Source: Taxawa tesnikishii (nom. ined.) (taxonomy: Eukaryota; Ascomycota; Dothideomycetes; Dothideales). From it: 64,000 bases of DNA. This document shows positions 54 to 34,959 of the stretch, piece by piece; the first letter of the stretch is position 1, and each line of letters begins with the position of its first letter. The position numbers were made by a program, and so were the translations under genes. Below the pieces are notes generated by a model, which worked only from the letters and a program-made list of their open reading frames with translations, had not been told where the DNA came from and did no database searches. The stretch lies in contig JAPDRO010000010.1 of the NCBI GenBank assembly GCA_030247885.1, forward strand, positions 682,001-746,000, in the 5' to 3' direction.

Positions 54-1902
54 ACGTAAACCGCGGGGTAATGGAACAGGTGGGGTAATGGAACACTCGA
101 ACGCGACCCTTCTAGCTTCAACTACTATTTGCGCACCGCAACAACAATACTGTCAGAATCTGAGTCGCTTACTACAACTTCCGCCTCTTCTTCTCCACTA
201 CTCTCGAGCGTCTCCTCAATTGGGCGCTTGCGTGGCCGTCCACGTGGCTTTTTAGTCGATGACTCCGCTTCTGCTGCCCTCGCTATCTCAAGCACTTCTT
301 CCGTACTAAACACGAACTTCCCTTTCAATGCGACCCGCTTGCCCTTCTTCCGAGTCTTTCGCATGTTGAGAAGCTTCTCCTGTTCTTCTACCTGTTTGCG
401 TAAAGTAACGAGCTCGCTATGCGTCACTTCAAAAGCGCGAGTCATCCGCTCCGCATACCGCTTCGCCGGGGATGGAGCATCCTGGATCGCCTTGATCGTG
501 GAGTTGAACAGCGCGTTTGCTTCGCGTAGCTCGGTGCCGTCTGGTGGAGAGCTATCTATTAGCGATAGGTCTAGATCAGGTTGTTGTGGAGGCGTGTGAG
601 GTTGTGTATCCGCCGTAGTTGGCTTCGTAGGCAGCTTGTTAAGCACCGTTATAGGGCTTAGCGGCACAAGACCTGCCCCTCTCCATCCACCGAGGATGTT
701 GTTAGTTGTAAGCGCCCTCGCCCTTGCGCGGATATACATCTCCGTCCATTCCACACGCGATATGCGGCCGGAGTCAAGTCGCAAAGCGGCGTCGGTTTCC
801 GAGGCTAGCGCGCGCTTTAGCGGTGCAAACACCCCAACATCGAGCGGCTGGAGTATGTGCGAACAGTGAGGCGGCAGGATGAGCAAGTCGATCGCATTCT
901 CCATGCAGAAGGCGATCACTTTCGCTGTCATATGGCTGCTATGGCCGTCCATGATTAGCATTCTTCGTGTCGTAGGGTCGTCAGGTCGCGTCAAAGGGTC
1001 GAAAACCGTAGTCAGCCACTGCAAACCGTGACTGTCGGACGTCCAGCCGCTGCTGCTAGTCGAGAACCGCCAGTCTGGAGGCGTATGTGCAGGTACCCAG
1101 GCGGTGTTGGTGTGTTTGGCCTTGAAGATGATCAAGGGTGGCACAGCTTCCCCAGCAGCGCTCACACACTCGATCGCCGTTATCCACTCTTGCCGGCTTC
1201 CAACCTGCTTCCAGCTAGATGTCTCACGTATGTTGACCAAAGCTCTTGACGACTGACTCGCTCCGACAGCAAAGCCAGACTCGTCCATGTTGTAGACGCG
1301 CTCTGGAGGATAGTTGTGTTGCACAAACAGTTCTGTCACTGCGTCAAACCACCTCTTTACGGCGTCATGACTTGTCGCGTTGAAGCGCGCACTCTCGATC
1401 TGACGAGTCCAGATGCTAGCTATCTCAGGATGGCGGGTTTTGAAGCGGTCGAGCCACTTCTCGCCAATCGGTCGAGGAGAAGGTCGCGAAGTCCTCGATA
1501 GCTGCACGCGTTCGCGTCGGATTTCTTCGGCCATTTGCACGACTAACGCAGGCGAGGCAGGGAAGCCGGTACGTGTAAGACGTGTAATCCATCGGACTAG
1601 TGTCTTCTCTTCCGCGTTTGAGAGAATTTGATCCGATTCATGCGCTATAGCGCGCGAAGTCCGTCCGGCCATACGCGCGCGTAGAGTTGAGTAGGGGACG
1701 CTAAACGCGCCTGCAGCCTTGCGAATTGACTTGAGTTCCTTTCTTTCAAGCGCAGAGATGGCGTCCTGTATATCAGCTTCAGTATAGGCGAGTTCGTTAG
1801 GTGTAGGAACATCCATGGTGGGTAGCAGTAATGGTGGAACATAGGAGAGTCGCGTTTCGGTGGTTCGCTTCCCCACCTGGCTCGCTTCCCCGCGGTTTAC
1901 GT
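54..1902 (-). mobile_element. Fot/pogo-like DNA transposon A1 (chimeric subfamily)
   Basis: The 1849-bp element is bounded by TA target duplications (52-53 and 1903-1904) and inverted ends starting ACGTAAACCGCGGGG. The left end continues TAATGGAACAGGTGGGG and the right end, read inward, continues AAGCGAGCCAGGTGGGG, so the two ends belong to different subfamilies. The left end and the 3' coding part resemble the elements at 9459 and 26674. The right end and the 5' coding part are nearly identical to the element at 16685. It carries one uninterrupted transposase and looks whole. Confidence 0.93.
125..1816 (-). CDS. Pogo/Fot1-like transposase (DDE_1 family), intact
   Basis: The predicted 563-residue DNA transposase would cut and paste the surrounding element. 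An N-terminal psq/CENP-B-type helix-turn-helix (about residues 10-50, TEADIQDAISALERKE) is followed by a second Tc5-type DNA-binding domain and the catalytic core with Asp in YNMDESGF, LIMDGHSSH and LQPLDVGVF. The C-terminus has a coiled-coil segment (LRKQVEEQEKLL) and an AT-hook-like basic stretch (PRGRPRKRP) before an acidic tail. I chose the ATG at 1816 because the upstream in-frame ATG at 1876 lies inside the terminal repeat and related elements start at the equivalent site. No stop or frameshift is visible. Residues up to about 445 match the 16685 copy and the remainder matches the 9459 type. Confidence 0.93.
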   Translation of the reverse strand: MDVPTPNELAYTEADIQDAISALERKELKSIRKAAGAFSVPYSTLRARMAGRTSRAIAHESDQILSNAEEKTLVRWITRLTRTGFPASPALVVQMAEEIRRERVQLSRTSRPSPRPIGEKWLDRFKTRHPEIASIWTRQIESARFNATSHDAVKRWFDAVTELFVQHNYPPERVYNMDESGFAVGASQSSRALVNIRETSSWKQVGSRQEWITAIECVSAAGEAVPPLIIFKAKHTNTAWVPAHTPPDWRFSTSSSGWTSDSHGLQWLTTVFDPLTRPDDPTTRRMLIMDGHSSHMTAKVIAFCMENAIDLLILPPHCSHILQPLDVGVFAPLKRALASETDAALRLDSGRISRVEWTEMYIRARARALTTNNILGGWRGAGLVPLSPITVLNKLPTKPTTADTQPHTPPQQPDLDLSLIDSSPPDGTELREANALFNSTIKAIQDAPSPAKRYAERMTRAFEVTHSELVTLRKQVEEQEKLLNMRKTRKKGKRVALKGKFVFSTEEVLEIARAAEAESSTKKPRGRPRKRPIEETLESSGEEEAEVVVSDSDSDSIVVAVRK

Positions 1903-1972
1903 TACGTTAAAGTAAATCTTAAATTATGTAGACATAGCGGAGCCCCTTCTAGCCTGCCGTGAGGTCTATATT

Positions 1973-2432: not shown

Positions 2433-2581
2433 CGTGTCGACTTTCTGTTAGCGGTGAGACAAGTTGAAATTTTGAGAAGCACTGCTCTGGAAATCATTCG
2501 TGTGGGTCGAAGCATAAATATCTCTTAACGTAATGCAGCCAGAATTCGGACTTCACCCCCACATATTCAGATGCTTGGATA

Positions 2582-4586
2582 ACGTGATTCCCCACTTGAT
2601 GACCGATCCCACATGATGACCGATTTTGCGCATTACCAACAACCAACTTTATCCTACTCCACAATGGACCACAACACTCGTATAGCTTGCGCAATAGATG
2701 ATTTAGAGTCGCAAGAGCGTATAAACTATGCCGTGACTGCGCGAAAGTGGAACATCGACCGTAGAACACTAGCAAAGCGCTACAAAGGCGAAACAGGCAC
2801 AGTCCAAGAAGCCATCTCTTACACGCGCCGGAAGCTCACAGACGCGCAAGAAGAGGCGCTTGTTGCGCATGCTAATAGACTTACGGATCGTGGCCTTCCA
2901 CCGACACCGCAGATACTCAAGAATATTGCTGAACAGATTGCAAAAACTGCGCTTGGAAAGAACTGGGTCACGCGCTTCTACCAGCGTCACCGCGATCGCC
3001 TCACTAGCATCTACCTACGAACAATCGATCACAAGCGCAAGGTAGCAGATAACTCGCACTACTTCCAAGACTTCTTTGACCTAGTTAGTTTTCTCCCACC
3101 TGCGTTATAGTAGCGTGCAGCCTGCTTCTAGTATACGCGTCTAACGCTCTTAACCTAGCTTCACAAAAAGATGGAGCAGTACGACGTCACGCCGTCAAAC
3201 ACGTACAACTTCGACGAGAAAGGCTTCTTGATAGGCCTCTCTAGGTCTACGAGAAGAATCGTCTCACGTGAAGCACTAGAAAGTGGGCGCTTGCTCGGTG
3301 CAAGTCAGGATGGCAGCCGGGACTTCATCACGCTTATTGCTTCCATCTGCGCCGATGGAACGCACCTTCCACCCGCGCTTATCTACCAAAGCGAGTCGGG
3401 AGACTTGCAAGACTCTTGGTTAGAGGATTTTGACGGTGAAAAACAGTCGGCATACTTCGCTAGCTCGGAGAAGGGGTGGAGTAATGAGGTTTTGGGGTTG
3501 CAGTGGCTGGAGCACGTGTTTGACCACAACACACGGCGAAAAGCAGCCAGAGATCAACGCCTGCTTATTCTAGACGGCCATAATAGCCATGTAAACCTCG
3601 ATTTCATCGACTACGCCGATTGCAACCGGATTCTACTTGCCGTTCTCCCTCCACACTCGACCCATAGGCTGCAACCTCTCGATGTTGGCATGTTTTCGCC
3701 TCTTTCGACCTACTACTCGCAAGAAGTCAGCGAGTTTCTGAGCAATGGTAGAGGTCTCACTCATGTTACAAAGCGGCAGTTCTGGACATTCTTCCACGAG
3801 GCGTGGAAGCGCGCATTTACGGAAAAGAACGTCAAAAGCGCATGGGAAGCGGCTGGGATTCACCCGTTCAACCCCGAGCGTGTGATAGCCACAATCACAC
3901 GGAAGAGCACCACGCCTGAGCCGCAGCAAGTTCGAACACCTACTTCAGCACGTGAGAGGGAGGAAAGAAAGGCCGCGCGTGCTGCGGCGCGGGAGGCAGC
4001 CAAAGCAGAGCGAGAACGTGAAAAGGCCGAACGAGCGGCAAAGAAAGTAGCGCAACAAGCGAGTAAGCTTGCGCAAACTACTAAGCAGCCTCGGGCTGCT
4101 ACCATAGAAGAAGGAGAAGTGATAGTGGTAAGGGCAGCGAAAGTAGACGCTACTAAGCCTAGGAAGAGGGGTCTCGAAGAGGAAGGGGTAGGGGTGCCCC
4201 GGAAGAGGCTTCACGCGCAGCCTTCCACACAGCGCACCCAGCGAGAAGCAAGCGATTCAGGTGCCATTCTAGGTTCTACGGAGTCTAAGCTTCAGCGTGC
4301 TGTTACTTCTAGAGGGAGGGTTTCTAGTCCTACTTTGCGCCAGCGAAAGGCAGGTTGGGTACCGGTTTCGCGGAGGTTACGCTCCGGGCGTAGCACACAG
4401 CCGCCCTCACGATATTTTTAAGTTAGTTAGTAGCCAGAATAGCTCTGTTACTACTCTTCTTAAAGTACATAAAACATCAGGTTAATGCATCTAGTGGTTG
4501 AATTATTAGAGCTGTGCTTTCATGTTTAGCTAGGATGTGCAAAATCGGTCATCATGTGGGATCGGTCATCAAGTGGGGAATCACGT
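2582..4586 (+). mobile_element. Fot/pogo-like DNA transposon B1 (GATGACCG subfamily)
   Basis: The element has TA duplications at 2580-2581 and 4587-4588 and inverted ends ACGTGATTCCCCACTTGATG. Each end holds two copies of a TGATGACCGAT-like word, the same architecture as the other Fot-like families here but with different bases. Length is 2005 bp. It encodes one transposase that reads through once a short intron is removed, so it may be whole. A deleted relative lies at 53996-55455. Confidence 0.92.
2664..4421 (+). CDS. Pogo/Fot-like transposase with one intron
   Basis: Exon 1 (2664-3083) encodes the helix-turn-helix region (ARKWNIDRRTLAKRYKGE) and the Tc5-like domain (LGKNWVTRFYQRH). Exon 2 (3159-4421) carries the catalytic Asp residues in YNFDEKGFLIG, LILDGHNSH and LQPLDVGMF. 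The 75-bp intron 3084-3158 has GTTAGT at the donor, a CTAAC branch site and TAG at the acceptor. Splicing restores a continuous frame across FFDL and LHKKMEQY, exactly where other family members are continuous. An earlier ATG at 2613 lies in the terminal repeat, so 2664 is preferred. The C-terminal 160 residues are Lys/Arg/Ala-rich (RKAARAAAREAAKAERE) and probably form a basic helix. No defects are seen. Confidence 0.88.
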
Positions 4587-4674
4587 TATCCCCGCGGATT
4601 ACGTTATGGCAAACAGTTCTAGGTGCAATGACTGATAACAGGCATTTAAAGTATTTTGGTAGATGAACATTGTA

Positions 4675-9422: not shown

Positions 9423-9456
9423 TACCGTGTCCGTGCACCCAATGCACGGATTCACT
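9423..9456. repeat. Solo terminal repeat of the 46735-type Fot element
   Basis: After TA at 9421-9424 the text CCGTGTCCGTGCACCCAATG matches the left end of the element at 46735 (CCGTGTCCGTGCACTCAATG). Only this end remains; element A2a starts two bases after it. This is a truncated relic of a second transposon family. Confidence 0.75.
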
Positions 9457-9544
9457 TAACGTAAACCGCGGGGTAGTGGAACAGGTGGGGTAAGGGAACA
9501 CTCGAACGCGACCTCTCTACCTTGTAACGCAGTTACCGCCTACC

Positions 9545-11035
9545 ATGAGTACTTCTACACCTAATAAACCCGTTTATACTGAAGCTGATGTCCAGAATGC
9601 CATCTCTGCCCTGAAAAGAAAGGAATATACGTCAGTTCGTAAGGCTAGTAAAGCGTTCAACATCCCAAGTACTACGCTTTGGAATCGCATGGCTGGACAC
9701 ACTTCGCGCTCTGTAGCGCATGAAACAGAGCAGATCCTATCAGTCGCGGAAGAGAAGACATTAGTCGGATGGATTACACGTCTTACACGTACCGGCTTTC
9801 CTGCTTCGCCTGCGTTAGTACTGCAAATGGCCGAAGAAATCCGTCGCGGACGCGTGCAGTTGTCGAAGACTTCGCGACCTCCTCCCCGACCGATTGGCGA
9901 GAAGTGGCTCGACCGCTTCAAGTCTCGCCATCCTGAGATCGCAGGCATATGGACTCGTCAGATCGAGAGTGCGCGCTTCAACGCGACAAGTCATGAGAGT
10001 GTAAAGAGGTGGTTTGACGCAGTGACGGAGCTGTTTGTGGAACACAACTATCCTCCGGAGCGCGTATACAACATGGACGAGTCCGGTTTTGCAGTCGGAG
10101 CAAGTCAGTCGTCAAGAGCATTAGTCAACATACGCGAGGCATCTAGCTGGAAGCAGGTCGGAAGCCGAGGGGAGTGGATAACGGCGATCGAGTGTGTGAG
10201 CGCTGCCGGGGAAGCTGTGCCTCCCTTGATCATCTTCAAGGCAAAACACACCAACACAGCGTGGGTACCCGCACACACGCCTCCGAACTGGAGGTTCTCG
10301 ACTAGCAGTAGCGGCTGGACGTCCGATAGCCACGGTTACGAGTGGCTGACTACTGTTTTCGAGCCTTTGACGCGGCCAGAAGACCCTACGGCACGGCGAC
10401 TACTGATTATGGACGGCCATAGCAGCCATATTACTGCGAACGTGATCGCCTTGTGCATGGGGAATGCGATTGACTTGCTCATCCTGCCACCTCATTGCTC
10501 GCATATACTCCAGCCGCTCGATGTTGGCGTCTTTGCTCCGCTGAAGCGCGCGCTAGCTTCGGAGACCGACGCCGCTTTACGAGTCGACTCTGGCCGCATA
10601 TCGCGCGTGGAATGGACGGAGATGTACATCGGCGCAAGAACTAGAGCCCTTACTACTCGCAACATCCTTGGTGGATGGAGAGGGGCCGGACTTATGCCTC
10701 TGAGCCCTATAACGGTGCTTGACAAGCTACCTACGGAGCCGACTACGGCGGATTCACGACCTCATACACCGCCACAACAACCCGATCTGGACTTATCGCT
10801 GCTCCACAGCTCACCACCAGATGGCACCGAGCTACGCAAAGCAAACGCGCTGTTCAACTCCACGCTTCAGGCGATCCGAGAGGCTCCATCCCCGGCGAAG
10901 CGGTATGCGGAGCGGATGACTCGCGCTTTTGAATCAACGCATAGCGAGCTCGTTACTTTGCGCAAACAGGTAGAAGAACAGGAGAAGCTTCTTAACATGC
11001 GAAAGACTCGAAAAAGGGCAAGCGGGTCGCATTGA
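9545..11035 (+). CDS. Fot-like transposase lacking its AT-hook tail
   Basis: The 496-residue transposase has the N-terminal helix-turn-helix (TEADVQNAISALKRKE), the Tc5-type domain and the catalytic core YNMDESGF, LIMDGHSSH and LQPLDVGVF. It ends after LLNMRKTRKRASGSH because one base is missing in a run of A residues near 11015, relative to the A1 and 16685 copies. The remaining 67 codons are open in the -1 frame (11032-11235). The whole catalytic core is kept, and two identical copies share the defect, so either the short protein is enough or another copy supplied the enzyme. A programmed slip at the A run is possible but the context is not a classic heptamer. Confidence 0.9.
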   Translation: MSTSTPNKPVYTEADVQNAISALKRKEYTSVRKASKAFNIPSTTLWNRMAGHTSRSVAHETEQILSVAEEKTLVGWITRLTRTGFPASPALVLQMAEEIRRGRVQLSKTSRPPPRPIGEKWLDRFKSRHPEIAGIWTRQIESARFNATSHESVKRWFDAVTELFVEHNYPPERVYNMDESGFAVGASQSSRALVNIREASSWKQVGSRGEWITAIECVSAAGEAVPPLIIFKAKHTNTAWVPAHTPPNWRFSTSSSGWTSDSHGYEWLTTVFEPLTRPEDPTARRLLIMDGHSSHITANVIALCMGNAIDLLILPPHCSHILQPLDVGVFAPLKRALASETDAALRVDSGRISRVEWTEMYIGARTRALTTRNILGGWRGAGLMPLSPITVLDKLPTEPTTADSRPHTPPQQPDLDLSLLHSSPPDGTELRKANALFNSTLQAIREAPSPAKRYAERMTRAFESTHSELVTLRKQVEEQEKLLNMRKTRKRASGSH

Positions 11036-11235
11036 AAGGGAAGTTCGTGTTTAGTACGGAAGAAGTGCTTGAGATAGCGAGGGCAGCAGAAGCGGAGTCA
11101 TCGACTAAAAAGCCACGTGGACGGCCACGCAAGCGCCCGATTGAGGAGACGCTCGAGAGTAGTGGAGAAGAAGAGGCGGAAGTTGTAGTGAGCGACTCAG
11201 ATTCGGACTGTATTGTTGTTGCGGTGCGCAAATAG
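11032..11235 (+). pseudogene. Detached C-terminal AT-hook tail of the A2a transposase
   Basis: Sixty-seven codons in the frame next to the transposase encode the tail seen fused in A1: FSTEEVLEIARAAEAES, then KKPRGRPRKRP, an AT-hook-like minor-groove-binding motif, and an acidic end. It starts at an in-frame ATG only by chance and is best read as the separated 3' end of the same gene. Confidence 0.8.
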
Positions 11236-11308
11236 TAGTTGAAGCCAGAAGGGTCGCGTTTGAGCGTTCCATTACCCCACCTGTTCCACTACCCCGCGGT
11301 TTACGTTA

Positions 11309-16629: not shown

Positions 16630-16684
16630 TATCGGGTTACTAGCTACTATTCTAGAGAAAACCACACTGTAGTTTTTAGGGTTA

Positions 16685-18533: not shown

Positions 18534-18535
18534 TA

Positions 18536-19349: not shown

Positions 19350-19392
19350 TATCATAGGTGAGCAGGAAAAATACGCACCATTTTAGCGATCA

Positions 19393-21825: not shown

Positions 21826-21944
21826 CGCGCATTGCGCAACTCGGCGGATGAACAGGGAGGATAGTAAGACGCTTTTGTGATGCTTAGAGACGGAGGGTTC
21901 TGACTTGAAGCCTGGGATAGAGATCGAGATTGTGTAAAAGGGTA

Positions 21945-22111: not shown

Positions 22112-22113
22112 TA

Positions 22114-22529: not shown

Positions 22530-23613
22530 CTTTAGCGGCGCAGACACCCCAACATCGAGCGGCTGTAGTAGATGCGAACAGTGAGGCGGCAGGATGAGCA
22601 AGTCGATTGCATTTCCCACGCAAAAGGCTATCACTTTCGCTGTCATGTGGCTGCTATGGCCGGTCATGATAAGTAGTCTTCGTGTCGTAGGGTCGTCAGG
22701 CCACGTCAAGGGCTCGGAAACAGTGGTCAGCCACTGCAAACCGTGACTATCGGACGTCCAGCCGCTGCTGCTAGTCGAGAACCTCCAGTCTGGAGGCGTA
22801 TGCGCGGGTACCCACGTTGTGTTGGTGTACTTGGCCTTGAAGATTATTAAGGGCGGCATAGCTTCCCCGGCAGCGCTCACATACTCCATCGCCGTGACTC
22901 ACTCGTCTACTTCCAATCTGTTACCAACTAGTTGCCTCGCGTATGTTGACCGACACTCTTGATGTCTGACTTGTTCCGACCGCGAAGCCAGGCTCGTCCA
23001 TGTTGTAGACGCGCTCTGGAGGATAGTTGTGTTGCACAAAAGCTCCGTTACTGCGTCAAACCATCTCTTGACGCTATCATGGTTTGTCGCACTGAAGCGC
23101 GCGCTATCTATCTGACGAGTCCATATGCCTGCGATCTCCGGGTGGCGAGTCTTGAAGCGGTCGAGCCACTGCTCGCCGATCGGTCGAGGTGATGGCCGTG
23201 AAGTCTTCGATAGCTGCACGCGTCCGCTTCGGACTTCTTCGGCCATTTGCACAACTAACGCAGGCGAAGCTAGAAAGCCGGTACGCGTAACACATGTGAA
23301 CCATCGTGCTAGAGTCTTCTCTTCCGCGACTGATAGGATCTGCCCTGTTTCATGCGCTGCAGTGCGTAATCTATGTTCTGCCATGCGATTTCGAAGCGTT
23401 GTACTTGGGACGTTGAACGCGCTAGCAGCCTTCTAGATTGATTTATGTTCCTTCTTTTTGGGGTCTGAGTAGTATTCTGGATATTAGCTTCGGTATACAT
23501 TCGCTAGTTGGGTATGGAAGCACTCATAGTGGGTAGTAGTGATGTTGGAAGATCGGAGGGTCGCGTTTTAGTGATCCATTACCCCACCTGATCCAGTACT
23601 CCGCGGTTCACGT
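22530..23613 (-). mobile_element. Broken Fot-like element A4 (GGATCA subfamily)
   Basis: Its right end (23613, then TA) reads inward ACGTGAACCGCGGAGTACTG with GGATCA twice. The transposase remains on the minus strand include MAEHRLRTAAHETGQILSVA, GEQWLDRFKTRHPEIAG, MPPLIIFKAKYTNTTWVPAH, TGHSSHMTAKVIAF (the catalytic Asp of MDGHSS is lost) and LLQPLDVGV. Several frame breaks separate these pieces. Everything after LQPLDVGVSAPLK, and the left terminal repeat, is missing. It is a dead copy. Confidence 0.88.
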
Positions 23614-23619
23614 TAATTA

Positions 23620-23750: not shown

Positions 23751-24382
23751 TTAGGACATACCATGCGAAACCCGGTCTTGCCTCATCTGTACGAAAGTTT
23801 GCGACTAGGGTATTTTATCATGCATGGCCAGCGTTGCTGTGACAACCATGTCTAGCGGCCGAAAAGAAGGAAGAAAAGGGGCAATCGGCGATTGTGGGTG
23901 TTGGAGGCGATGGTACCTGCTTGTCTTTATGTCGAAGAAGCAGAACGACAGCAGCTAGGGGAGCGGTCTTTACCTCCGTAGACAGTGCGGCGGAGCGCTA
24001 GCCGTCACGGAAGTAGCATCGCAGATGGGAGAACATCGTGCAACTAGGATTGCGGAAGTAGATGTGCTCTAGTGATGATGCTGCCTTGACTTGCAGATGG
24101 TCGATGATGCAGCGGCGGACTTCAGCTTCAGCATCGAGTGATGGTGGATGTCGGGGACTCGGTGCGTTCTTTATATGTGTACCGGGCAGCCTGACCCCGT
24201 GCTCATGCAACCACGGCAGTATGTGGTGCTGTTCTTGTTGTATGGGGATCCTTGCGTGTCCCTGTCCCCTTGATTGTCCCTATCCCTGCCGTTGATACCT
24301 TAGTATGACCGGCAGTGACGTCGAGATCTACAGATGTGTATGTAGTACTATGTTGAGTATCGTCTGCAGTGTCCTGTTATGA
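23751..24382. other. Intergenic, nothing recognised
   Basis: About 630 bp without recognisable exons, terminal repeats or transposon similarity lie between a Fot-like relic and the Tc1-like element. Confidence 0.4.
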
Positions 24383-24384
24383 TA

Positions 24385-25721
24385 CCTCGGCAAAAGTCTG
24401 CGTAATTCCCGAATCCTCCGAATCCAGAAGCCTACCCTCTGATGCACCACCCTATGCCCTGTACCTATAACACTAGCAATTAACTAGCAAACTGAGTATG
24501 GAATAGTTCAGATCTTGGAGGTTTGCATGGCAACTCAGGAATAGTGATTTTCTTCAGTATCTAGTGTACCAGCCATCATTCTGAAGGCAAGCCTGGATCC
24601 TATCCACCATACTCACAACACAGTTATACACTGCATTACTACTGATATGATCCCAAGCATGTACAAGGGCATCTTCCATCCTTTTATGTACAAAGTCATT
24701 ACCACCACTCCATAGATCCATGCCAGGATATAGCTGAAAGAGCTGCTTTTTGAGCATAGCCCATACATGCTCAATGGGGTTCAGATCTGGTGAGTATGCA
24801 GGCCAGTCTTCCACCAGTTTGATGCCTTCCTTTCTGAAAAAGCTGCTGTCTTTCTGGCTGTGTGTATACCAGCGTTATCTTGCTGGAATAGCAGGTCCTT
24901 ATGGTACATAGGAAGTAGGCCCATAGTAAGAGCATCAATGTATGAGTTTGCTGAGTACCCTTGCCTCTTTGACTCCATATCCCTACGCATAACAATCAAT
25001 TCAGTCTTGTAGTTGCTATATATGCCAGCCCATACCATCACACGTATGTCCTTGCTCTTGTTGAATGGTTGAACCTTGTCTTTCTGGTATGCTTGGCCAG
25101 TAGCACGCCATACATAGGCAGCTGGTTTACCAGATCCACGCTCTACAGAGCACTCATCTGAAAAGATGACTTTTAGCTAGTCTTCAACACTCCAGTCTTT
25201 GTGTAATTCACACCATTCTCTTCTCCTTTCAGCTGAGGCTTCTGACAACAAAGGTCTCTTCTTGGCAATCCAATCCTTGATGCCTTGGTCCTTCAGAACT
25301 CGGTAGACTGTAGCATGGCTGCAATCCAGCTGGAGATCCTTCAAAAGCTGGCCATAGTTGTGAAATGGATATTTACGCGCATAACGCACAATTGTACGCT
25401 TTGTGCGCTCTGTACAAGCTTGTGGACGGCCCATGCGAGGTTTGGAGACACCGTGTAGTCGCTGAGAGGACCTTTTGATAGTAGTACTAATGGTACTGGC
25501 TGTAAGGTTGAAGATCTCGCGTATTTGACGCTGTGGTACACCAGCAATAGCCATTCCAACGATCTGATTTCTTGTAGCTGGTGAGATCTCAGTATTGCGA
25601 CGTCTATTACGCGGTATCACAGCAAGAGCACGAGTTTGTGGCGCCATAGTGGTGGTTGAATTGATAGAGTGTTATTCTAGCTGACGCGTCGCGCGAATCT
25701 GTACGCAGACTTTTGCCGAGG
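24385..25721 (-). mobile_element. Tc1-like DNA transposon T3, both ends present
   Basis: TA duplications (24383-24384 and 25722-25723) flank perfect inverted ends CCTCGGCAAAAGTCTGCG, giving a 1337-bp element. This is the only copy of this family here with both matching ends and the complete body, so it defines the family. The transposase inside is broken, so it is not autonomous. Confidence 0.93.
24554..25647 (-). pseudogene. Tc1-like transposase, broken
   Basis: The N-terminal part (25647-25177) starts MAPQTRALAVIPRNRRR and holds two helix-turn-helix units, GRPQAC and the segment HATVYRVLKDQGIKDW. It ends at VED-stop, where the 56286 copy has VEDW (TGG to TAG). Later pieces carry RRDMESKRQGYSANSYIDAL, LLFQQDNAGIHTARK and WPAYSPDLNPIEHVWAML in shifted frames, so all three catalytic acids (Asp, Asp, Glu) can be recognised but not in one frame. 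At least one stop and two frame shifts are present. Confidence 0.9.
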
Positions 25722-25723
25722 TA

Positions 25724-26412
25724 TCATATTGGTTATGTAAATAATGTAAGCAGCTCATTGCCTCAATGGGTCGATCTGGCAACAGACTGACCTGCCGAGG
25801 CAGGACTAAAGCCAAGGGTTAATTGATGTCTACGTCAACGGGTGGAGCGCTTGGCTTGGCCTAATCGACTCGTTTAGCCCTACGTCATGCAGGTTTTTAC
25901 CGGTCTTGCAACCGTCTCCTCGTTGATTGCACGGAACTCCACTCCGATCTGATTAGAGAATGGCGATGGCGGTTTTGCGTTGCTTTGGCCGCTCGGCACG
26001 ATCTGCGATCCCAGAACAGGCAAGTTTCCGTTCAACGCGCACCTTCTTCCTAAGTCCCAGTCTTCTCCGTCTTACTATTACATCTGTCTGTGCCGAGCCT
26101 TTCTGCACCATTCCAAAGACGCATCGGCCAACCTGATCGACGACCTAAATCTGCTGCACTTGCCTCACACATACTTCGGTTTTTCGCATGACCTACTTGC
26201 ATGACACCCCGCCTGTTTCTAATCTACTGTTCATCGATCTAACAGTATCCCGGCTCTCCTAGTCTACAATTCCGGTAGTTAACTGGAAAGGCCGCACTGT
26301 TGTCATGCTGTTGCAAGGATTTTTGGCAGGGTCTTCCAACAGGCGTTTATGTAAGAGTACCGCGCTGGTAAACGTCTGCGCGGACCTGTTTTGCCCTTTA
26401 CTAGCTTGCAGC
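25724..26412. other. Pyrimidine-rich upstream region, no gene recognised
   Basis: This gap lies upstream of the SAM-domain relic. CT-rich stretches near 26040-26110 (such as CCCAGTCTTCTCCGTCTTAC) resemble fungal promoter or 5' UTR sequence, so it may be the old promoter of that gene. No exon with family similarity was found. Confidence 0.4.
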
Positions 26413-26647: not shown

Positions 26648-26673
26648 GCGTTTGTACATTCTCATCTTTGGTA

Positions 26674-28521
26674 ACGTAAACCGCGGGGTAGTGGAACAGG
26701 TGGGGTAAGGGAACACTCGAACGCGACCTCTCTACCTTGTAACGCAGTTACCGCCTACCATGAGTACTTCTACACCTAATAAACCCGTTTATACTGAAGC
26801 TGATGTCCAGAATGCCATCTCTGCCCTGAAAAGAAAGGAATATACGTCAGTTCGTAAGGCTAGTAAAGCGTTCAACATCCCAAGTACTACGCTTTGGAAT
26901 CGCATGGCTGGACACACTTCGCGCTCTGTAGCGCATGAAACAGAGCAGATCCTATCAGTCGCGGAAGAGAAGACATTAGTCGGATGGATTACACGTCTTA
27001 CACGTACCGGCTTTCCTGCTTCGCCTGCGTTAGTACTGCAAATGGCCGAAGAAATCCGTCGCGGACGCGTGCAGTTGTCGAAGACTTCGCGACCTCCTCC
27101 CCGACCGATTGGCGAGAAGTGGCTCGACCGCTTCAAGTCTCGCCATCCTGAGATCGCAGGCATATGGACTCGTCAGATCGAGAGTGCGCGCTTCAACGCG
27201 ACAAGTCATGAGAGTGTAAAGAGGTGGTTTGACGCAGTGACGGAGCTGTTTGTGGAACACAACTATCCTCCGGAGCGCGTATACAACATGGACGAGTCCG
27301 GTTTTGCAGTCGGAGCAAGTCAGTCGTCAAGAGCATTAGTCAACATACGCGAGGCATCTAGCTGGAAGCAGGTCGGAAGCCGAGGGGAGTGGATAACGGC
27401 GATCGAGTGTGTGAGCGCTGCCGGGGAAGCTGTGCCTCCCTTGATCATCTTCAAGGCAAAACACACCAACACAGCGTGGGTACCCGCACACACGCCTCCG
27501 AACTGGAGGTTCTCGACTAGCAGTAGCGGCTGGACGTCCGATAGCCACGGTTACGAGTGGCTGACTACTGTTTTCGAGCCTTTGACGCGGCCAGAAGACC
27601 CTACGGCACGGCGACTACTGATTATGGACGGCCATAGCAGCCATATTACTGCGAACGTGATCGCCTTGTGCATGGGGAATGCGATTGACTTGCTCATCCT
27701 GCCACCTCATTGCTCGCATATACTCCAGCCGCTCGATGTTGGCGTCTTTGCTCCGCTGAAGCGCGCGCTAGCTTCGGAGACCGACGCCGCTTTACGAGTC
27801 GACTCTGGCCGCATATCGCGCGTGGAATGGACGGAGATGTACATCGGCGCAAGAACTAGAGCCCTTACTACTCGCAACATCCTTGGTGGATGGAGAGGGG
27901 CCGGACTTATGCCTCTGAGCCCTATAACGGTGCTTGACAAGCTACCTACGGAGCCGACTACGGCGGATTCACGACCTCATACACCGCCACAACAACCCGA
28001 TCTGGACTTATCGCTGCTCCACAGCTCACCACCAGATGGCACCGAGCTACGCAAAGCAAACGCGCTGTTCAACTCCACGCTTCAGGCGATCCGAGAGGCT
28101 CCATCCCCGGCGAAGCGGTATGCGGAGCGGATGACTCGCGCTTTTGAATCAACGCATAGCGAGCTCGTTACTTTGCGCAAACAGGTAGAAGAACAGGAGA
28201 AGCTTCTTAACATGCGAAAGACTCGAAAAAGGGCAAGCGGGTCGCATTGAAAGGGAAGTTCGTGTTTAGTACGGAAGAAGTGCTTGAGATAGCGAGGGCA
28301 GCAGAAGCGGAGTCATCGACTAAAAAGCCACGTGGACGGCCACGCAAGCGCCCGATTGAGGAGACGCTCGAGAGTAGTGGAGAAGAAGAGGCGGAAGTTG
28401 TAGTGAGCGACTCAGATTCGGACTGTATTGTTGTTGCGGTGCGCAAATAGTAGTTGAAGCCAGAAGGGTCGCGTTTGAGCGTTCCATTACCCCACCTGTT
28501 CCACTACCCCGCGGTTTACGT
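26674..28521 (+). mobile_element. Fot/pogo-like DNA transposon A2b, identical to A2a
   Basis: TA duplications lie at 26672-26673 and 28522-28523 around a 1848-bp element whose terminal repeats and coding sequence appear base-for-base the same as 9459-11306. Every protein reading in the two copies matches at a constant offset of 17,215 bp. The identity means a very recent transposition or gene conversion. It inserted into an intron or just past the SAM-domain exon at 26647. Confidence 0.95.
26760..28250 (+). CDS. Fot-like transposase lacking its AT-hook tail (second copy)
   Basis: This copy encodes the same 496 residues as the one at 9545, with the same early end after KRASGSH. The catalytic motifs (YNMDESGF, LIMDGHSSH, LQPLDVGVF) are intact. 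The detached tail frame with KKPRGRPRKRP lies at 28247-28450. Because the one-base deletion is shared, it predates the transposition that made the two copies, so it did not prevent mobility in cis or in trans. Confidence 0.9.
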   Translation: MSTSTPNKPVYTEADVQNAISALKRKEYTSVRKASKAFNIPSTTLWNRMAGHTSRSVAHETEQILSVAEEKTLVGWITRLTRTGFPASPALVLQMAEEIRRGRVQLSKTSRPPPRPIGEKWLDRFKSRHPEIAGIWTRQIESARFNATSHESVKRWFDAVTELFVEHNYPPERVYNMDESGFAVGASQSSRALVNIREASSWKQVGSRGEWITAIECVSAAGEAVPPLIIFKAKHTNTAWVPAHTPPNWRFSTSSSGWTSDSHGYEWLTTVFEPLTRPEDPTARRLLIMDGHSSHITANVIALCMGNAIDLLILPPHCSHILQPLDVGVFAPLKRALASETDAALRVDSGRISRVEWTEMYIGARTRALTTRNILGGWRGAGLMPLSPITVLDKLPTEPTTADSRPHTPPQQPDLDLSLLHSSPPDGTELRKANALFNSTLQAIREAPSPAKRYAERMTRAFESTHSELVTLRKQVEEQEKLLNMRKTRKRASGSH

Positions 28522-28789
28522 TACCCTAACCAAACGACAACGATGTTATATCTCCATAACGGCTGCGTTTGACATGCTGTGCCTTTGGATATCCGTTTTT
28601 TGCGTGCGTGCGACAAATCTGCCGGATTCTAATGGCATACCGCCTAGGGAATGTAATTGGGATCAGGTCGCAAAGTTGATAATGGGGATGGGCTTCCTGT
28701 AGTCTCTATCACTACGAACATCTGAGCACATAAAGGGGATAGGATCTCATCCCAAAACGCCATTTTGGTTAGGACATCCAGAAGGCAAT

Positions 28790-29288
28790 ATCTGCAGTAA
28801 AAAATCGAGAATACACGTTAGTCCGAAAAGCTGCGCTTGCATTTAACGTTCCAAACGCAACGCTACAGAGTCGCATGGCTGGACATACTTCACGCGCTGC
28901 AGCGCATGAAACAGAGCAGATCCTTTCGAACGCGGAAGAAGAGACACTAGTCCGATGGATTACACGTCTTACGCGTACCGGCTTTCCTGCTTCGCCTGCG
29001 TTGGTCGTGCAAATGGCCGAAGAAGTCCGACGCGAACGCGTGCAGCTATCGAGGACTTCGCGATCATCTCCTCGACCGATTGGCGAGAAGTAGCTCGACC
29101 GCTTCAAGACTCGTCATCCTGAGATCGCAGGCATCTGGACTCGTCAGATCGAGAGCGCGCGCTTCAACGCGACAAGCCATGACGCCGTAAAGAGGTGGTT
29201 TGATGCGGTGACGGAGCTTTTGTGGAACACAACTACCTCTCTTCTAGTGACTCGCTTCTCCGGGTACTCGCTTCCCCAGGGATGATGT
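28790..29288 (+). mobile_element. Fot-like fragment A5, N-terminal half joined to a right end
   Basis: From about 28790 the plus strand encodes KAISAVKNREYT, LVRKAALAFNVPNATLQSRM and MAEEVRRERVQLSRTSRSS, then GEK-stop-LDRF (TGG to TAG at about 29092) and on to FDAVTEL. The catalytic half is gone. Shortly after, the text GACTCGCTTCTCCGGGTACT and CGCTTCCCCAGGGATGATGT followed by TA (29289-29290) looks like a right end with the word GCGAGTACC. It is an internal-deletion derivative; the left end was not found. It ends 44 bp from the stop of the surface-protein gene. Confidence 0.75.
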
Positions 29289-29332
29289 TAGTGATTTTGA
29301 ACACAGCACAAACTGATGATGACTGAATACTT

Positions 29333-30992
29333 TCAAAACTGACCCGAAACTCCACTATCATACCCTGCGCTCGCCACAGCCGTAGCGTAGGAGTAAAACC
29401 CCTGAAACAACGTACACTGGCCTGCCTCGCTTCCACCAACGACACTCTGAAACCCGAATCCAGCGCACGGAGCTTCGTCGTAGTTTACACACAGATTAAA
29501 GCAAGCTGCAAAATCCGACAGAGAAGTCGTAGCGATTGGGTCTACCACGTTCACTGAGCTTCCACAGTAGACCTCATATTCGCCATAGTGACCTGGAGTG
29601 CAGCCGTTGGTGAAGACAGCGGTGACAGTCTCAAACGTGGTTGTGGTGGTTGTTCTTGTTGCGATATCTTCTTCGACGGTTGTAGTGCTCATAGACGTGA
29701 CTGTGACGGTGGAGATGGGTGTGCTTGCTATGATTTGTGTGGTTCGGGGTGGGAGTTCGCTTGTGGACGTGGTTGTGGTAGCGGAGAGGGTTTTTGTGGT
29801 TGTGGTTGTTGAGGATGCATATTTTGTGGTGACGGTTGTGCTTACTGGATTTGTGATTGTAATGGTGGAGGTTATCGTCGTAGTTAGTTGGCCAGTTGAT
29901 GAACATGCTGCTGGAATGGTGGTGGTGGTGGTGGTATCGGTCCTGGAAAGAGTGATATGGGCTGTGGAGGTGTGAGGGTGGACGAATACTGAGCATGCTT
30001 CGGAGATGAGGTCGCATGCGAAGATCTGTAGTTCCTTTGGGAGGTTGCTGATGGCGCATTTCATAGAAGATGAAGTTGTTTTTGCACTCGTGGAACCGGT
30101 CGTAGCTCGCGGGAGTACGTTATTCCATAAGCGACGCGGATCGACGAAAATGTGCCACGGCGATAGCTTTGTAGATGACTCCATGTCTCGTCTGAACTTG
30201 AGTGCTTCTGCTGTGGTCTCTCTGGCTGTGACACTGCGTGAACGATTAAAACAGTCCGATCTGAGCATCATTTCGTGCTGCAAGCGAAGTGCCTAGTACA
30301 CTGAGATCGACTGTAGACTTACACATCGTATGTAAAGACTGTCGTGGATGTGGATGTGTCTGTTCTCGTATATGTAGTTTGCACCACGGTAACGATGGTT
30401 GTTGTCTCTGTAGCGGGTGTGGTGGTGTCCTGGATGTGCGAAAGTGTTAGAAACATACTAGGCTCATACTTTGGTTGGGTAACATTCTTGTACCGTAACG
30501 GTCGAAGCTGATGCTGTTACAACAACGGTAGAAGTCGAACCAGATATTGTCATAGTGACTGTGGTCGTGCTTGCTGTGACGGTTGTGGTGCTCGTGAATA
30601 CCGAGCCTCGAATTGTAGAGGTCCTTGTCATCGTCGTCGTGCTCGGTGATGGTGTCTGTTGTTTGTCAATTGCGGATTGACCCAATTAGCTCAGTGAGGC
30701 GCGCCTTTTTACAGCTGCCCGTTGTGACGGTTCTAGTCTTTAGGCCGGTCGAGGCAGTTGATGAGATAGTCTGGGTAACATCATGAACCCCAATAAAGGT
30801 GGAACAAAATGACGATGCTTTCAAGGCAACTAGAACTGCTTCGCATGTAGCGACGTTGTTTCTTTGCTTCAATTTCTGACTGGGTGCGCTGTCGAGTTGA
30901 GATTTGGCGCGAGAAGTCAAGCCTGCATTAGCACGTGGGGCTGCGGCAAGGAAGAACAAGACGAGTATCAGTAAAAGCTTAATAGTACCCAT
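29333..30992 (-). CDS. Secreted Ser/Thr-rich surface protein with apple/PAN-like C-terminus
   Basis: The start at 30992 opens a textbook signal peptide (MGTIKLLLILVLFFLAAAP, cleavage near ANA-G). The mature part is dominated by Thr/Ser/Val repeats in several exons (TSTTTVTASTTTVTMTISGS; TETTTIVTVVQTTYTRTDTS). The C-terminal Cys-rich region (NGCTPGHYGEYEVYCG; ACFNLCVNYDEAPCAGFGF; CTLFQGFYSY) resembles apple/PAN-like domains of fungal wall proteins. A clear intron joins PTK to DTTTPATE (about 30477-30440); one near 30700-30660 and one near 30325-30290 are less certain. No GPI signal is evident. Role is probably adhesion or wall structure (inference). Transposon Z1 has TA duplication overlapping the A of the start codon, so its own promoter is now beyond 32842. 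Confidence 0.75.
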
Positions 30993-30993
30993 A

Positions 30994-32840
30994 ACGTAGT
31001 TCACCACCGAGCGGCCAACCACCACCGAGTGGCCCACCCCACTAAAGTTGCGTCTATTACATGTCTATTACCTCCGCACCACTACACTCTGCTGCAATCT
31101 GCCAGGCACTACAGTACTATTCAGAAGCGTCGCTATCGCCTGGATCTACTATTTCTGCAGTGCAGGTGCGCTTGTTGTGGCCAGTCTTGCCGCAACGCCC
31201 GCAGTGCCTCTGCGCGCGCGCCCTCTTTGCAGGCTGTTCAGCTGCCTCCTCACCACCACCCTCCTTCTCAGCAATCAGATCCAATACGTCGCCTACTGCA
31301 AGGCTCTCCTCTGTGCGAACATACTTCCTCTTGCGTTTGCGCTGCTCTGTTGCTGCCTCTATTGCCTTGCGAAGACCTGCGATTTCCCTGGTCTGCAACA
31401 CTGAATTATGACCTATGATAGCTATGCCTTTGGCAAGCGAATTGACAGCCTGCAGAAGAGGTGAAACAGGCGATTCTCTGTGCTGTTGTATGCGCTCGCG
31501 GACTAGTGTTGATTGGGCCTCTATCTCCTGCAGGTTGCCTGGTGTTTTGGATTCCCATAGGGTGGCCTCTACCGGTGGAGGTGTTGGCGTGCGAAGCACC
31601 ACATCAAGCTTCGATAGCACTCGCTCTGGGTCGTGGGGGACCAACCCAGCGCCTCTGAAGCTTGCCTGGATATTCTCCTTTGTGATTGCCTTGTCGAAAG
31701 CGATATGAAAGGCTGGCAAGAAGCTCTCTTTCTTGACTTGCGTGACTGAGTACCGTGACCAGCTGTCAATCTCCGTGTAGTACGCCCGCTTCAGGGGGCA
31801 AAACAGCCCACGTCAAGCGGCTGCAACAGGTGCGATGAGTGTGGAGGCATGCAGAGAACAACAATCTTCTGTTCCTCACAGTACTTGTGGAAACTGTGAC
31901 TATTGTGGCTCTCATGGCCGTCCACAATCAGTAGACGATACATTCCTATAGTACGCCCCTTTGTATGCGCGTCAAAGTGCTTTAACCACCTGATAGCAAG
32001 CTCATTTGACGTCCAGCCGTTAGGGCTAGTCTCGATAACCCAATCACGAGGCAGGCCTGGGTACCAGCTTGATATGAGGACCTTGCCGCCGAAGATGATA
32101 AAGGGTGGGATAGCCCACCCACTAGCGCAGATGCCCTGGATGATTGTAACCCACTCCCGGTTGCCCGGCTGTATCTTCTTTGGATTGTTCCGCTTCTCAG
32201 TGCCTGTGAAGACCATATGAGCGTTTATCACGCCCATCATGAAGCCTGTCTCATCAAAGTTGTGTGTGTCTTCATCCAGGATGCCGTACTTCGCCTTTGT
32301 GTCCTCTACAAGCTTGAACCAGGGCGCTATAACGCGTGCATCTTCGTTCAAGGCTCGCTGACGATCGTATGGACGGCTGCGTCGAAGCTTGATATCGTCG
32401 ATACGCGTCTTGAACCTGTCTACCCAGTTCTTGCCAACGGGCCCTTTCCCACGCGCGGCGCGTAGATCATTGGCCATTTCTCCGACCATAGTCCTTGTAG
32501 CGCCTATCCCTCGCGCATCTAGCTCAAGTATGCGTCGCACAACTGCGTCCTCTTCTAGGCTACTAAGGTTCCTGCAGTTGGGCTGAGTATCGCGTCGTGA
32601 GAGGGTTCCGTCGCGTCGTCGTCTTAGCGTCGTTCGGGGACGTCAAACGCTCTGCTTGCGTGTCTCGTAGTATCTGGTGTCTTGGCTTGGGTAGCCTGGA
32701 TAGCAAGGGACAGTGTGCCTTCGTTGTAGGTCTTCTGCGCGTTACGTGGTGGTGGCATTGTAGGCAATAGACATGTAATAGGCAAAGGTTGGTGAGGCGG
32801 GCCACTCGGTGGTGGTTGGCCGCTCGGTGGTGAACTACGT
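30994..32840 (-). mobile_element. Fot/pogo-like DNA transposon Z1 (zinc-knuckle subfamily)
   Basis: TA at 30992-30993 and 32841-32842 flank ends ACGTAGTTCACCACCGAGCG, each with CACCACCGAG(C/T)GGCC twice. Length is 1847 bp. The paired-word layout is as in the other families but the words differ entirely. The insertion point is directly in front of the start codon of the surface-protein gene. Confidence 0.93.
31117..32758 (-). pseudogene. Fot-like transposase with CCHC zinc knuckle, two frameshifts
   Basis: The start is MPPPRNAQKTYNEGTLSLAI. After a frame change near 32630 (one C short in a C run) come the DNA-binding half (VGKNWVDRFKTRIDDIKLRR) and the catalytic motifs HNFDETGFMMG, LIVDGHESH and LQPLDVGCF. 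A second frame change near 31797, again one C short, precedes ENIQASFRGAGLVPHDPERV. The C-terminus is Lys/Arg-rich and ends with CGRCGKTGHNKRTC, a canonical CCHC zinc knuckle, not the AT-hook of the A elements. Except for the two single-base losses the gene is complete. Confidence 0.88.
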
Positions 32841-33111
32841 TATCCAAACTGTTGGATCTTTGAGACAGACGCTTAGTCTCTTGGGAACTGTTTATCTTAA
32901 CGGACGCAAGGTATTCTTGTCATCTGGAGAGCGCAAAAGAAGTAAGAGAGGAAGGGATTACTTAATTCTTACGTCGAGGAAGAGCTCAGCTAGCCACGGC
33001 CATCGTCTACGCGACTGCCCTATAGGGCGCGCAAACCGCTCACCCCACCCGCCTCAAGGGACAAATCACGGATAGCAAGTAGCGATTGCCTACAGTGACT
33101 CCACAAAAGTA

Positions 33112-34959
33112 ACGTAGTCCGCGGGGATGTGGGTCACGCGGGGTAGTGGGTCAACGAATCTCTACCCTTTCAACTCCATTAATTATCTGCGCATTGCAAC
33201 CATAATACAATCAGAATCAGAGTCGCTGGGTAGGTTCTCAAATAGCTCGTCTTCCTCCTCCTCAGTTATTTCTTTCGCCTTGCACTTACGTGGCCGTCCA
33301 CGAGTCTTTTTCTTTGCTGTCTCCGCTTCTGCTACCTTCGCTATCTCGAGTACTTCTTGCGTACTAAACACGAACTTCCCTTTCAATGCAACTCGCTTGC
33401 CCTTTGTTCGGGCCTTTCGAGTATTGAGAAGCCTCTCCTGTTCTTCTACCTGCTTGCGTAAAGTGATAAGCTCGCTGTGCGTCGATTCAAAAGCGCGAGT
33501 CATACGCTCCGTATACCGCTTCGCCGGAGATGGAACGTCCTGGATAGCCTTTATCGTGGAATTGAGTAGCGCGTTTGCTTCACGTAGTTCAGTGCCGTCT
33601 GGCGGTGAGCTACAGAGTAGCGACAGGTCTAGATCGAGTTGCTGGGGTGGTGTATGCGGTGGTGAAGCGGCTGGAGTCGTCCTAGAAGGTAGCTTTTCAA
33701 GCACAGATATCGGGCTTAGCGGTACTAAACCAGTACCGCGCCACCCAGCGAGAATGTTGCGAGTAGTAAGCGCCCTATCCCTTGCGCGGATGCACATCTT
33801 AGTCCATTCTACGCGCGATATGCGACCAGAATCGACACGCAAAGTAGCATTAGTCTCCGAGGCTAGCGTACGCTTTAGCGGCGCAAAGACGCTAACATCA
33901 AGCGGTTGAAGGATATGCGAACAATAAGGTAGTAGTATCATTAAGTCAATTGCATTCTGCATATAGAACGCAATTACCTTGCCAGTAATATGGCTACTGT
34001 GGCCGTCCATGATTAGTAATCTCCGAGTTATAGGGTCCTCTGGCCGTATCAAAGGCTCGAACACGGTAGTCAGCTACTCGTAACCGTAGCTATCGGACGT
34101 CCAGCCGCTGTTGCTAGTCGAGAACCTCCAGTTTGGAGGCGTATGTGCAGGTATCCATGTAGTATTCGTGTGTTTCGCCTTGTAGATCAACAAGGGTGGA
34201 ACAGCCACGCCGGCTGCGCTTACGCACTCGATTGCAGTTATCCATTCTTGCCTGCTAATGATCTGCTTCCAACTACTGTCCTCACGTATGTTGACCAATG
34301 CTCTTGATGACTGACTCGCTCCGACTGCGAAGCCGGACTCGTCCATGTTGTAAACGTGCTCCGGCGCATATTGGTTCTGTATCCACATCTCCGTTACCGC
34401 GTCAAACCACTTCTTTGCGTTCTCGTAGCTCGTCGCTCTGAACCGTGCGCTATCAATCTGACGCGTCCAGATGCCTGCGATCTCAGGATGACGAGCCTTG
34501 AAGCGATCGAGCCAATGCTCGCCAACTGGTCGAAGAGTTAGGGCGGAAGCCTTGGAAAGCTGGACGCGTCCGCGTCGTATCTCCTCAGCCATTTGTAGAG
34601 CCAACGCAGGCGAAGCGGGAATCCGGTACGCGTAAGACGTGTAATCCATCGTACTAACGTCTTTTCTTCCGGTATAGAAAGGAGCTGCTCATCTTGGTGC
34701 GCTATAGCGCGTGAAGTTCGTCCAGACATGCGATGCTGTAGCGTTGTGTTCGGGACCTTGAATGCGAGGGCAGCCTTACGAACTGATGGGTATTCGTTGT
34801 TTTTAACAGCAGAAATGGCCTTCTGGATATCCTCTTCCGTATAAGCCTGTTTACTAGGTATAGAAGTACTCATGGTAGTTGGTAGTAACGGTAGAAGATT
34901 GGAGGTTCGCGTTGTAGTGACCCACTACCCCGCGTGACCCACATCCCCGCGGACTACGT
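33112..34959 (-). mobile_element. Fot/pogo-like DNA transposon A6 (GGGTCA subfamily)
   Basis: The element has TA at 33110-33111 and 34960-34961. Ends read ACGTAGTCCGCGGGGATGTG with the words GTGGGTCA/GTGGGTCAAC (left) and GTGGGTCAC (right) repeated twice around GCGGGGTAGTGGG. Length is 1848 bp. It belongs to the A group by protein sequence but has its own terminal word. It abuts the 5'-truncated LINE at 35013. Confidence 0.93.
33183..34873 (-). pseudogene. Fot-like transposase, one frameshift and one nonsense codon
   Basis: It begins MSTSIPSKQAYTEEDIQKAI with the usual helix-turn-helix. The frame changes after ITRLTRTGFP (about 34620), continuing ASPALALQMAEEIRRG and GEHWLDRFKARHPEIAG. At 34073 the conserved YEWL is YE-stop-L (TGG to TAG). 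The second part holds LLIMDGHSSHITGKVIAF, HILQPLDVSVFAPLK and the tail KKTRGRPRKCK with an acidic end. All catalytic Asp residues are still present. The two lesions make it inactive. Confidence 0.9.

Follow-up and report, generated by a model that had tools for sequence, protein, structure and literature searches.

Paired words in the ends of Fot/pogo transposons are tied to the third helix of the first helix-turn-helix domain of the transposase in Taxawa tesnikishii

Introduction

The ends of Pot2 carry 16-bp direct repeats. Ends of this kind have been treated in three papers: in 2010, 17-bp direct repeats were reported together with a possible link between the DNA-binding domain and the ends (PMC2836289), in 2012, ends starting with ACGT and holding 15–17 bp repeats were described (PMC3441728), and in 2014, ACGT was presented as the cleavage site and the direct repeats as transposase sites (PMC4188875). 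According to a further paper (PMC7386202), the inverted ends of Fot/pogo elements are mostly 40–60 bp long, and Fot elements have a target duplication that is mostly TAA, with TA in two clades. Here we analyse the pogo-type transposons in a stretch of 64,000 nucleotides (the window) from Taxawa tesnikishii (nom. ined.), positions 682001–746000 of contig JAPDRO010000010.1 (C2) of assembly GCA_030247885.1, and compare them with their relatives throughout this genome. In one family, referred to as the main family, each end carries a short word twice, and the word differs between subfamilies together with the third helix of the first helix-turn-helix (HTH) domain of the transposase.

These elements bear on an old question, namely how function is preserved when a DNA-binding domain and the several copies of its target change together.

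Results

A main-family end has the form TAACGT(A/G)(A/G)(A/T)CCGCGGGG, followed by ten bases, GGTGGGG or similar and ten further bases; it can be read as a TA-ACGT tip plus two 17-bp repeats (e.g. GCGGGGTAATGGAACA and GTGGGGTAATGGAACA). When up to one mismatch is allowed, the outer block ACGTARWCCGCGGGG has 13 matches in the window, 12 of them exact, compared with a mean of 0.03 and a maximum of 1 in 100 shuffles. The initial annotation of this DNA had listed paired words at five ends sharing such a block. The words lie where it placed them and the sharing is real, but the count is too low, since 13 such ends are present, including a leftover at 4590–4604. What it had taken for a separate spacer between the paired words is part of the 17-bp repeat, as are the kept GGGG and the inner GCGGGG of the outer block, and the swapped part consists of five bases followed by a fixed CA (the last seven of each ten bases; below, the word). 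Window families with the two-repeat layout have a period of 17, except for family Z, where it is 18. Of the other families for which the same layout had been proposed, B has it with period 17 and Z with its longer period; the C element has unlike ends. The tip reads ACGT in the main family, B, D, Z and two more families, ACGA in family C and CCGT in the family of the element at 46733. The proposal that the outer block is kept for cleavage is therefore not supported in its original form: the tip is not universal, and GCGGGG, most of the block, is half of the first repeat unit and so more likely a binding site than a cleavage site.

A 33-place pattern of the end matched 111 places in the genome, 100 of which were listed, and none when read backwards. 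In the stretches of sequence covered, 126 ends were found, and the 108 in register were counted. The two words of one end were identical in 67 of 108 (shuffles: mean 6.3, maximum 14) and within one base of each other in 94 (mean 21.9, maximum 36). When each distinct word pair was counted only once, 13 of 39 were identical and 28 within one base, compared with shuffle means of 1.2 and 4.2 and maxima of 6 and 12. Agreement extends across elements: the first words of both ends were within one base in 25 of 29 paired full-length elements, one of the 25 (912875–914743) being a nested and ambiguous case, and the four that disagree represent three events. All nine miniature inverted-repeat transposable elements (MITEs) in register at both ends carry words that match within one base. 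In four of the nine, all with the word TGGATCA, the tip block differs between the ends (AAA versus AGT) while the word is the same, indicating that tip and word assort separately.

Turning to the transposase, 54 main-family copies were clustered; 42 retain both a 5′ end and a DNA-binding domain that can be read, and of these 40 were sorted into 15 word groups. One copy with a deleted repeat and one altered by repeat-induced point mutation (RIP) were left out, and one row with a one-base shift was assigned to its group by hand. The variable bases of the word in these groups are, in order, C/T, G/C/T, G/A/C, A/G and A/C/T. The helix that concerns us lies in the first HTH domain (HTH_psq, here psq) and reads P-x1-x2-T-L-x3-x4-R-M, residues 41–49 counted from the M, so that x1–x4 are residues 42, 43, 46 and 47. 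All 15 groups differ in their majority four-residue helix, which is found in 37 of 40 copies, the other three differing from it at one position. The idea that the word changes with the transposase is borne out here and can be narrowed to the third helix of psq. Words varying freely among identical DNA-binding domains were not seen in the main family, although a recombinant in another family (L083, below) breaks the rule.

Two residues are paired with two bases of the word, base 2 being determined by residue 47 and base 5 for the most part by residue 42. The three words that have C at base 2 come with D at residue 47 and the two that have T come with S, whereas the ten with G come with N, H or A. 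Y at residue 42 accompanies all seven words that have C at base 5 and is absent from the remaining groups; T at base 5 goes with N, F or S, and A with K, P or S. In a scan comprising 470 tests, in which all variable columns were set against the five word bases, residue 42 with base 5 ranked first and residue 47 with base 2 second, with family-wise p-values of 0.0003 and 0.006 by the largest raw information. Word distance correlated with helix distance in a Mantel test (r 0.43, p 0.0004) but not with the rest of psq (r 0.09, p 0.17), and the word–helix correlation held after the rest of psq had been removed (partial r 0.44, p 0.0003); in the word–helix test, the four-residue set ranked first among 57 equally spaced sets. 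When one group at a time was left out, residue 47 gave the correct base 2 every time (15 of 15; majority rule 10), the largest gain among the 470 tests, and residue 42 gave the correct base 5 in 10 of 12 calls (majority rule 7). One copy outside the 15 groups, L064, which has lost its tip, has the helix N P.. Q S and the first word TTGGTCA, as N and S predict. We conclude that word-swapping is tied to the third helix of the first HTH domain.

Divergence between the groups is concentrated in the same domain. Mean identity between the 15 groups is 62% for the psq HTH (105 pairs), compared with 84% for the second HTH domain (HTH_Tnp_Tc5, here Tc5), 87% for DDE and 78% for the C-terminus (91 of the 105 pairs each). 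Nonsynonymous difference, calculated for nine groups, is 0.52 for the four helix residues, 0.18 for the rest of psq, 0.09 for Tc5 and 0.08 for DDE. In trees, the end branches of psq, even with the helix left out, have a median length about four times that of the other two domains (0.25, versus 0.068 for DDE and 0.062 for Tc5). Since synonymous difference is also raised in psq (0.86 and 0.51, versus 0.39 and 0.44), the psq module looks older or less homogenised, besides changing faster.

A profile of 17 such domains, compared with solved structures, matched the CENP-B–DNA complex 1HLV (E 5e-5), and in this match the helix lines up with its CENP-B counterpart. A search with a single sequence of the domain gave only weak, unrelated matches. 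In a predicted model of the domain from E6, one of the window elements listed below, residues 42, 43, 46 and 47 lie in helix 42–49, the third helix, and a Foldseek search with this model returned 1HLV first of 165 hits (E 7.5e-3, probability 0.99). Sequence profile and fold search both identify a CENP-B-like domain with two HTH motifs. The corresponding CENP-B helix sits in the major groove, and the CENP-B box, like the repeat unit here, is 17 bp long. The box itself, TTCGNNNNANNCGGG, is not enriched in the window: one match was found (24408, outside the main-family ends), with 0.40 expected.

The elements of the window and their parts are as follows.

52–1904, minus strand: E1, 1853 bp, with transposase at 125–1816 (minus)
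69–78 and 86–95: left end of E1, word TAATGGAACA twice (GGAAC type)
1878–1887 and 1861–1870: right end of E1, GCGAGCC/GCGAACC, unlike the left end
1676–1693, minus strand: codons 42–47 of the E1 transposase, third helix of the first HTH, Y S.. R A (helix placed from the E6 model)
2580–4588, plus strand: family B element, word TGATGACCG twice per end, period 17
4590–4604: leftover main-family end adjoining the family B element
9423–9456: stub of another pogo-type end, TACCGTGTCC...CAATGCACGG, directly adjoining E3 and apparently marking a nested insertion
9457–11308, plus strand: E3, GGAACA at both ends with the second copy of each end changed by one base; transposase 9545–11035
16683–18535, plus strand: E4, GCGAGCC/GCGAACC at both ends; transposase 16771–18462
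16894–16911, plus strand: codons 42–47 of the E4 transposase, third helix of the first HTH, Y S.. R A (placed from the E6 model)
21943–22113, no strand assigned: 171-bp MITE, GGATCA at both ends, outer block ACGTAAACC at one and ACGTAGTCC at the other
22518–23615, minus strand: E5, a broken main-family copy with its 5′ end at 23615 and the word GGATCA
26672–28523, plus strand: E6, GGAACA at both ends with the second copy of each end changed by one base; transposase 26760–28250
26883–26900, plus strand: codons 42–47 of the E6 transposase, third helix of the first HTH, S T.. W N
30992–32842, minus strand: family Z element, ACCACCGAGNGGCC twice per end, period 18
31791–32642: transposase piece of family Z with DDE_1 and HTH_Tnp_Tc5; an adjoining open frame spans 31117–31812
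33110–34961, minus strand: E8, GGGTCA at both ends, transposase frame broken
46733–48867, plus strand: further pogo-like element, TCAATGCGC twice per end, period 17; transposase 46822–48552
53994–55457, minus strand: family C element with unlike ends, TTGATGCACG twice at the left and GTGATGCCCG/GTAATGCCCG at the right (the side of the DNA-binding domain)

The proteins of E3 and E6 are the same (tblastn, 100%). Intact copies exist of the E4, E6, E8 and TTGATCA transposase types. For the copies at 28773–29219 and 37852–37995, no main-family end was found in the stretch read, and hence no word; the inverted-repeat pairs at 24378–25728 and 56280–57638 did not show the two-repeat layout. HTH_psq, HTH_Tnp_Tc5 and DDE_1 occur together in four of eight proteins scanned (E1, E3, E4 and E6), and the remaining four, from broken copies or other families, have DDE_1 with or without Tc5. 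Two aspartates, D290 and D326, are invariant in all seven aligned transposases and have 35 residues between them, which is the D-D35-D spacing of Fot/pogo; judged from their position, they are the last two catalytic residues. The inverted arms measure 42–76 bp, in agreement with the end lengths of Fot/pogo elements. TA stands at both element ends and, judged from the ends, would fit a duplication of TA rather than TAA. We conclude that the window elements are ordinary Fot/pogo cut-and-paste transposons.

The word had been described as specific to the subfamily; E1 combines two words, with GGAAC on the left and GCGAGCC/GCGAACC on the right. E1 resembles E4 over its 5′ 300 bases and E3 over the last ∼360, and the similarity to the two shifts gradually inside the element. 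A second copy of E1 is identical over 1853 bases and has a different right flank. This pair was considered as proof that unlike-ended elements move and was rejected, because the left flanks of the two copies are the same in the 50 bases that were compared. Unlike ends also occur in C2:226027–227875, C2:526118–527970, L064 and the family C element, so that two such elements, E1 and the C element, lie in the window. Each of these five has a 5′ end that fits its own helix or its type, and L083 is the reverse case, with a 5′ end that does not fit its own helix. Since the 5′ end lies ∼200 bases from the helix codons and the 3′ end ∼1.6 kb away, linkage alone would favour a fitting 5′ end.

Sister families show parallel sets of words and helices. 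Among the B, C and D types, the Tc5 part agrees at 89–93% and psq at 58–73% (four between-type comparisons), and D R R.. A K goes with ATGACCG, D R S.. S R with ATGCACG and D R R.. A R with ATGCCCG. In the 46733 family, V R S.. T goes with the first word ATGCGC and D R S.. S with ATGCAC; several copies of the V R S.. T kind (L082, L107, L109 and L080) have ATGCAC as their second word. A distant family, with 27.5% identity to E6 in this domain, has R S.. Q D with the first word TCGGCCA in six of six copies read, one of which has TCGGTCA as its second word; the pairing of D with C at base 2 thus recurs in this family. The residue–base pairing is partly common to the families and not universal.

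The assembly comprises 29.4 Mb in 34 contigs, and C2 (1,163,921 bases) is rich in transposons. All but 26 of 146 HTH_Tnp_Tc5 matches lie on C2, a contig that makes up 4% of the assembly. For the main-family transposase, C2 carries 50 of 85 among the matches listed, a list in which 84 of 565 candidates were scored and which is biased toward well-kept copies. At least nine stop codons are present in 33 of 35 main-family copies listed off C2, compared with 1 of 50 on C2. RIP indices agree with this contrast, showing strong mutation in six of nine pieces off C2 (G+C 0.26–0.31) and in 1 of 15 from C2 (L100). C2 may be an accessory chromosome that escapes RIP, or a later arrival.

A further pogo family, with TAACGTGTTTCACAAG ends (L112–L114 and L124–L126, on C2, C16, C1 and C24), has long open frames also off C2, of 575–590 amino acids at the C1, C16 and C24 places read; in this they differ from the RIP-broken main-family copies off C2. 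The window contains several pogo-type transposons and genes that are fungal in type. An open frame at 12139–13641 (minus) has polyprenyl synthetase and terpene synthase domains, the chimeric terpene synthase type of fungal secondary metabolism. Between transposons at 38568–40880 (minus) lies a hybrid histidine kinase (HisKA, HATPase_c), with a partial response-regulator match below the cut-off, and pieces of a retrotransposon without long terminal repeats (endonuclease, reverse transcriptase and RNase H) are found at 59586–63077 (plus).

Discussion

The layout of the ends and the covariation of word and helix suggest that each end comprises two 17-bp binding sites, that the third helix of psq sets the word and that the subfamilies are separate addresses, a reading to which we assign a probability of roughly 0.8. 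The two sites would lie side by side behind the TA-ACGT tip, and one transposase subunit would cover one 17-bp unit with its two HTH domains, as CENP-B does on its box. The first HTH would place its third helix on the five-base word, contacting it physically, and the kept G-rich part is most likely read by the second, Tc5. Residues 42, 43, 46 and 47 would set the word, residue 47 acting with base 2 and residue 42 with base 5. As helix and words change together, subfamilies would become separate addresses with reduced cross-mobilisation, while the tip, with ACGT as the putative cleavage site, and the catalytic domain would stay common. Recombination between subfamilies may then shift ends, giving rise to unlike-ended elements whose 5′ end usually still fits their own helix.

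Several observations weigh against this reading. The four residues were picked after the table of words and helices had been seen, and our controls are therefore only partly blind. By the largest z-score, which is inflated by rare letters in the 470-test scan, the family-wise p-values of the two pairings are 0.11 and 0.13 and not significant, and the correlation of the word with the rest of psq, after removal of the helix, is borderline (r 0.17, p 0.052). The leave-one-out gain of residue 42 for base 5 (+3) is also reached by two non-helix columns, both for base 3. The copies are related and recombining, 7 of the 15 groups consist of a single copy, and independent pairs on the trees are too few for a test, at most two lying on supported branches, where they point in the same direction or show no difference. 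No relatives outside this genome were confirmed in searches of genome contigs and viral contigs, so the word–helix test rests on one genome. The second word of L064, TCGGTCA, is not what the rule gives. In the 46733 family, L083 has a D.STLS helix behind the ATGCGC end of the other subfamily, and L041 and L117 combine the helix D R S.. S R with GTGCCGCCCG instead of ATGCACG, which means that the four residues do not fix the word across families; in two other families R, in place of Y, also goes with C at base 5. The E6 model is modest (predicted local distance difference test, pLDDT, 71; predicted template modelling score, pTM, 0.46), and its match to 1HLV has a low template modelling score (TM-score) of 0.27.

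A rival reading is that words and DNA-binding domains have both drifted with age, so that their match reflects shared ancestry and not recognition. In its favour, the groups are related, their trees are poorly resolved, the z-scored scan is not significant family-wise and the independent pairs are too few. Against drift, the rest of psq does not track the words, whereas the four helix residues do so after its removal, and the word varies while the neighbouring CA and GGGG stay, both copies changing together. In addition, all three domain trees join the CGAACCA group to TGGGTCA on a branch with good support, and two of the three place TTGATCA there as well. Despite this position in the trees, the CGAACCA group has Y... 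R A like CGAGCCA, matching the likeness of the words (CGA.CCA). We consider shared ancestry alone an unlikely explanation.

A different doubt concerns the recombinants only and leaves the word–helix link untouched: unlike-ended elements might be assembly errors in repeats, since 1.85-kb repeats with up to 100% identity recur on C2. The assembly consists of long contigs (34 for 29.4 Mb), the two copies of E1 agree in all 1853 bases while their right flanks differ, and the resemblance of E1 to E4 and E3 changes gradually inside the element, all of which makes assembly error quite improbable. Least probable of all, and hardly credible to us, is that gene conversion keeps the words alike without a role in recognition while psq changes fast for another reason: close repeats convert easily and recombinant elements are present here, but conversion alone accounts neither for helix residues that predict the word nor for the recurrence of the D–C pairing in a distant family.

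In a wider reading, the natural set of at least 15 word–helix pairs that one transposon family has on one contig, together with the parallel sets in related families, could represent a readable psq-helix code, in which new addresses arise by coordinated change and by recombination of ends and domains, and sister elements stop cross-mobilising each other. We regard this wider proposal as an even bet. Recombinant and possibly intermediate states stand side by side in one genome, with a specific and testable residue–base pairing, which makes this genome a ready-made series for learning how such enzymes choose DNA. If this pairing holds, it would provide a specificity table for HTH domains of the psq/CENP-B type, a way of pairing MITEs with the enzymes that move them, and candidate orthogonal transposase–end pairs.

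The initial annotation knew of no account of word-swapping in such elements. This claim of novelty is weakened by the papers of 2010, 2012 and 2014, which contain the general idea; the residue-to-base pairing for these transposases was not found in the accessible parts of the open-licence literature, a search that did not cover the original Fot1, Pot2, Tan1 and Aft1 papers.

Compared to known systems, the CENP-B domain likewise places two HTH motifs on one site and aligns through the same helix; CENP-B differs from these transposases in being a domesticated protein, and its box sequence is not enriched here. In Sclerotinia sclerotiorum, Tc1-mariner elements are described with an ACGT tip as the cleavage site, direct repeats as transposase sites and some specificity conferred by each end/transposase pair, but direct repeats were not found in those ends, as far as the accessible text goes (PMC4188875). 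Trem of Paracoccidioides has two 17-bp direct repeats per end, as here, and these repeats are said to resemble those of Aft1 and Tan1; the link between domain and end is given there as a possibility, and a residue-to-base pairing does not appear in the part of the paper available (PMC2836289). DAHLIAE1 of Verticillium dahliae shares with the main family a length of ∼1.9 kb, TA flanks, ACGT ends with 15–17 bp direct repeats and a transposase with psq, Tc5 and DDE_1; it forms five subfamilies, and the main text, in its accessible part, has no table setting repeat letters against helix residues (PMC3441728). The end features of DAHLIAE1 and Trem, an ACGT tip and two direct repeats of 15–17 bp per end, are both present in the main family. 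What is new here is the specific residue–base pairing, which sister families replicate in part, together with the recombinant states.

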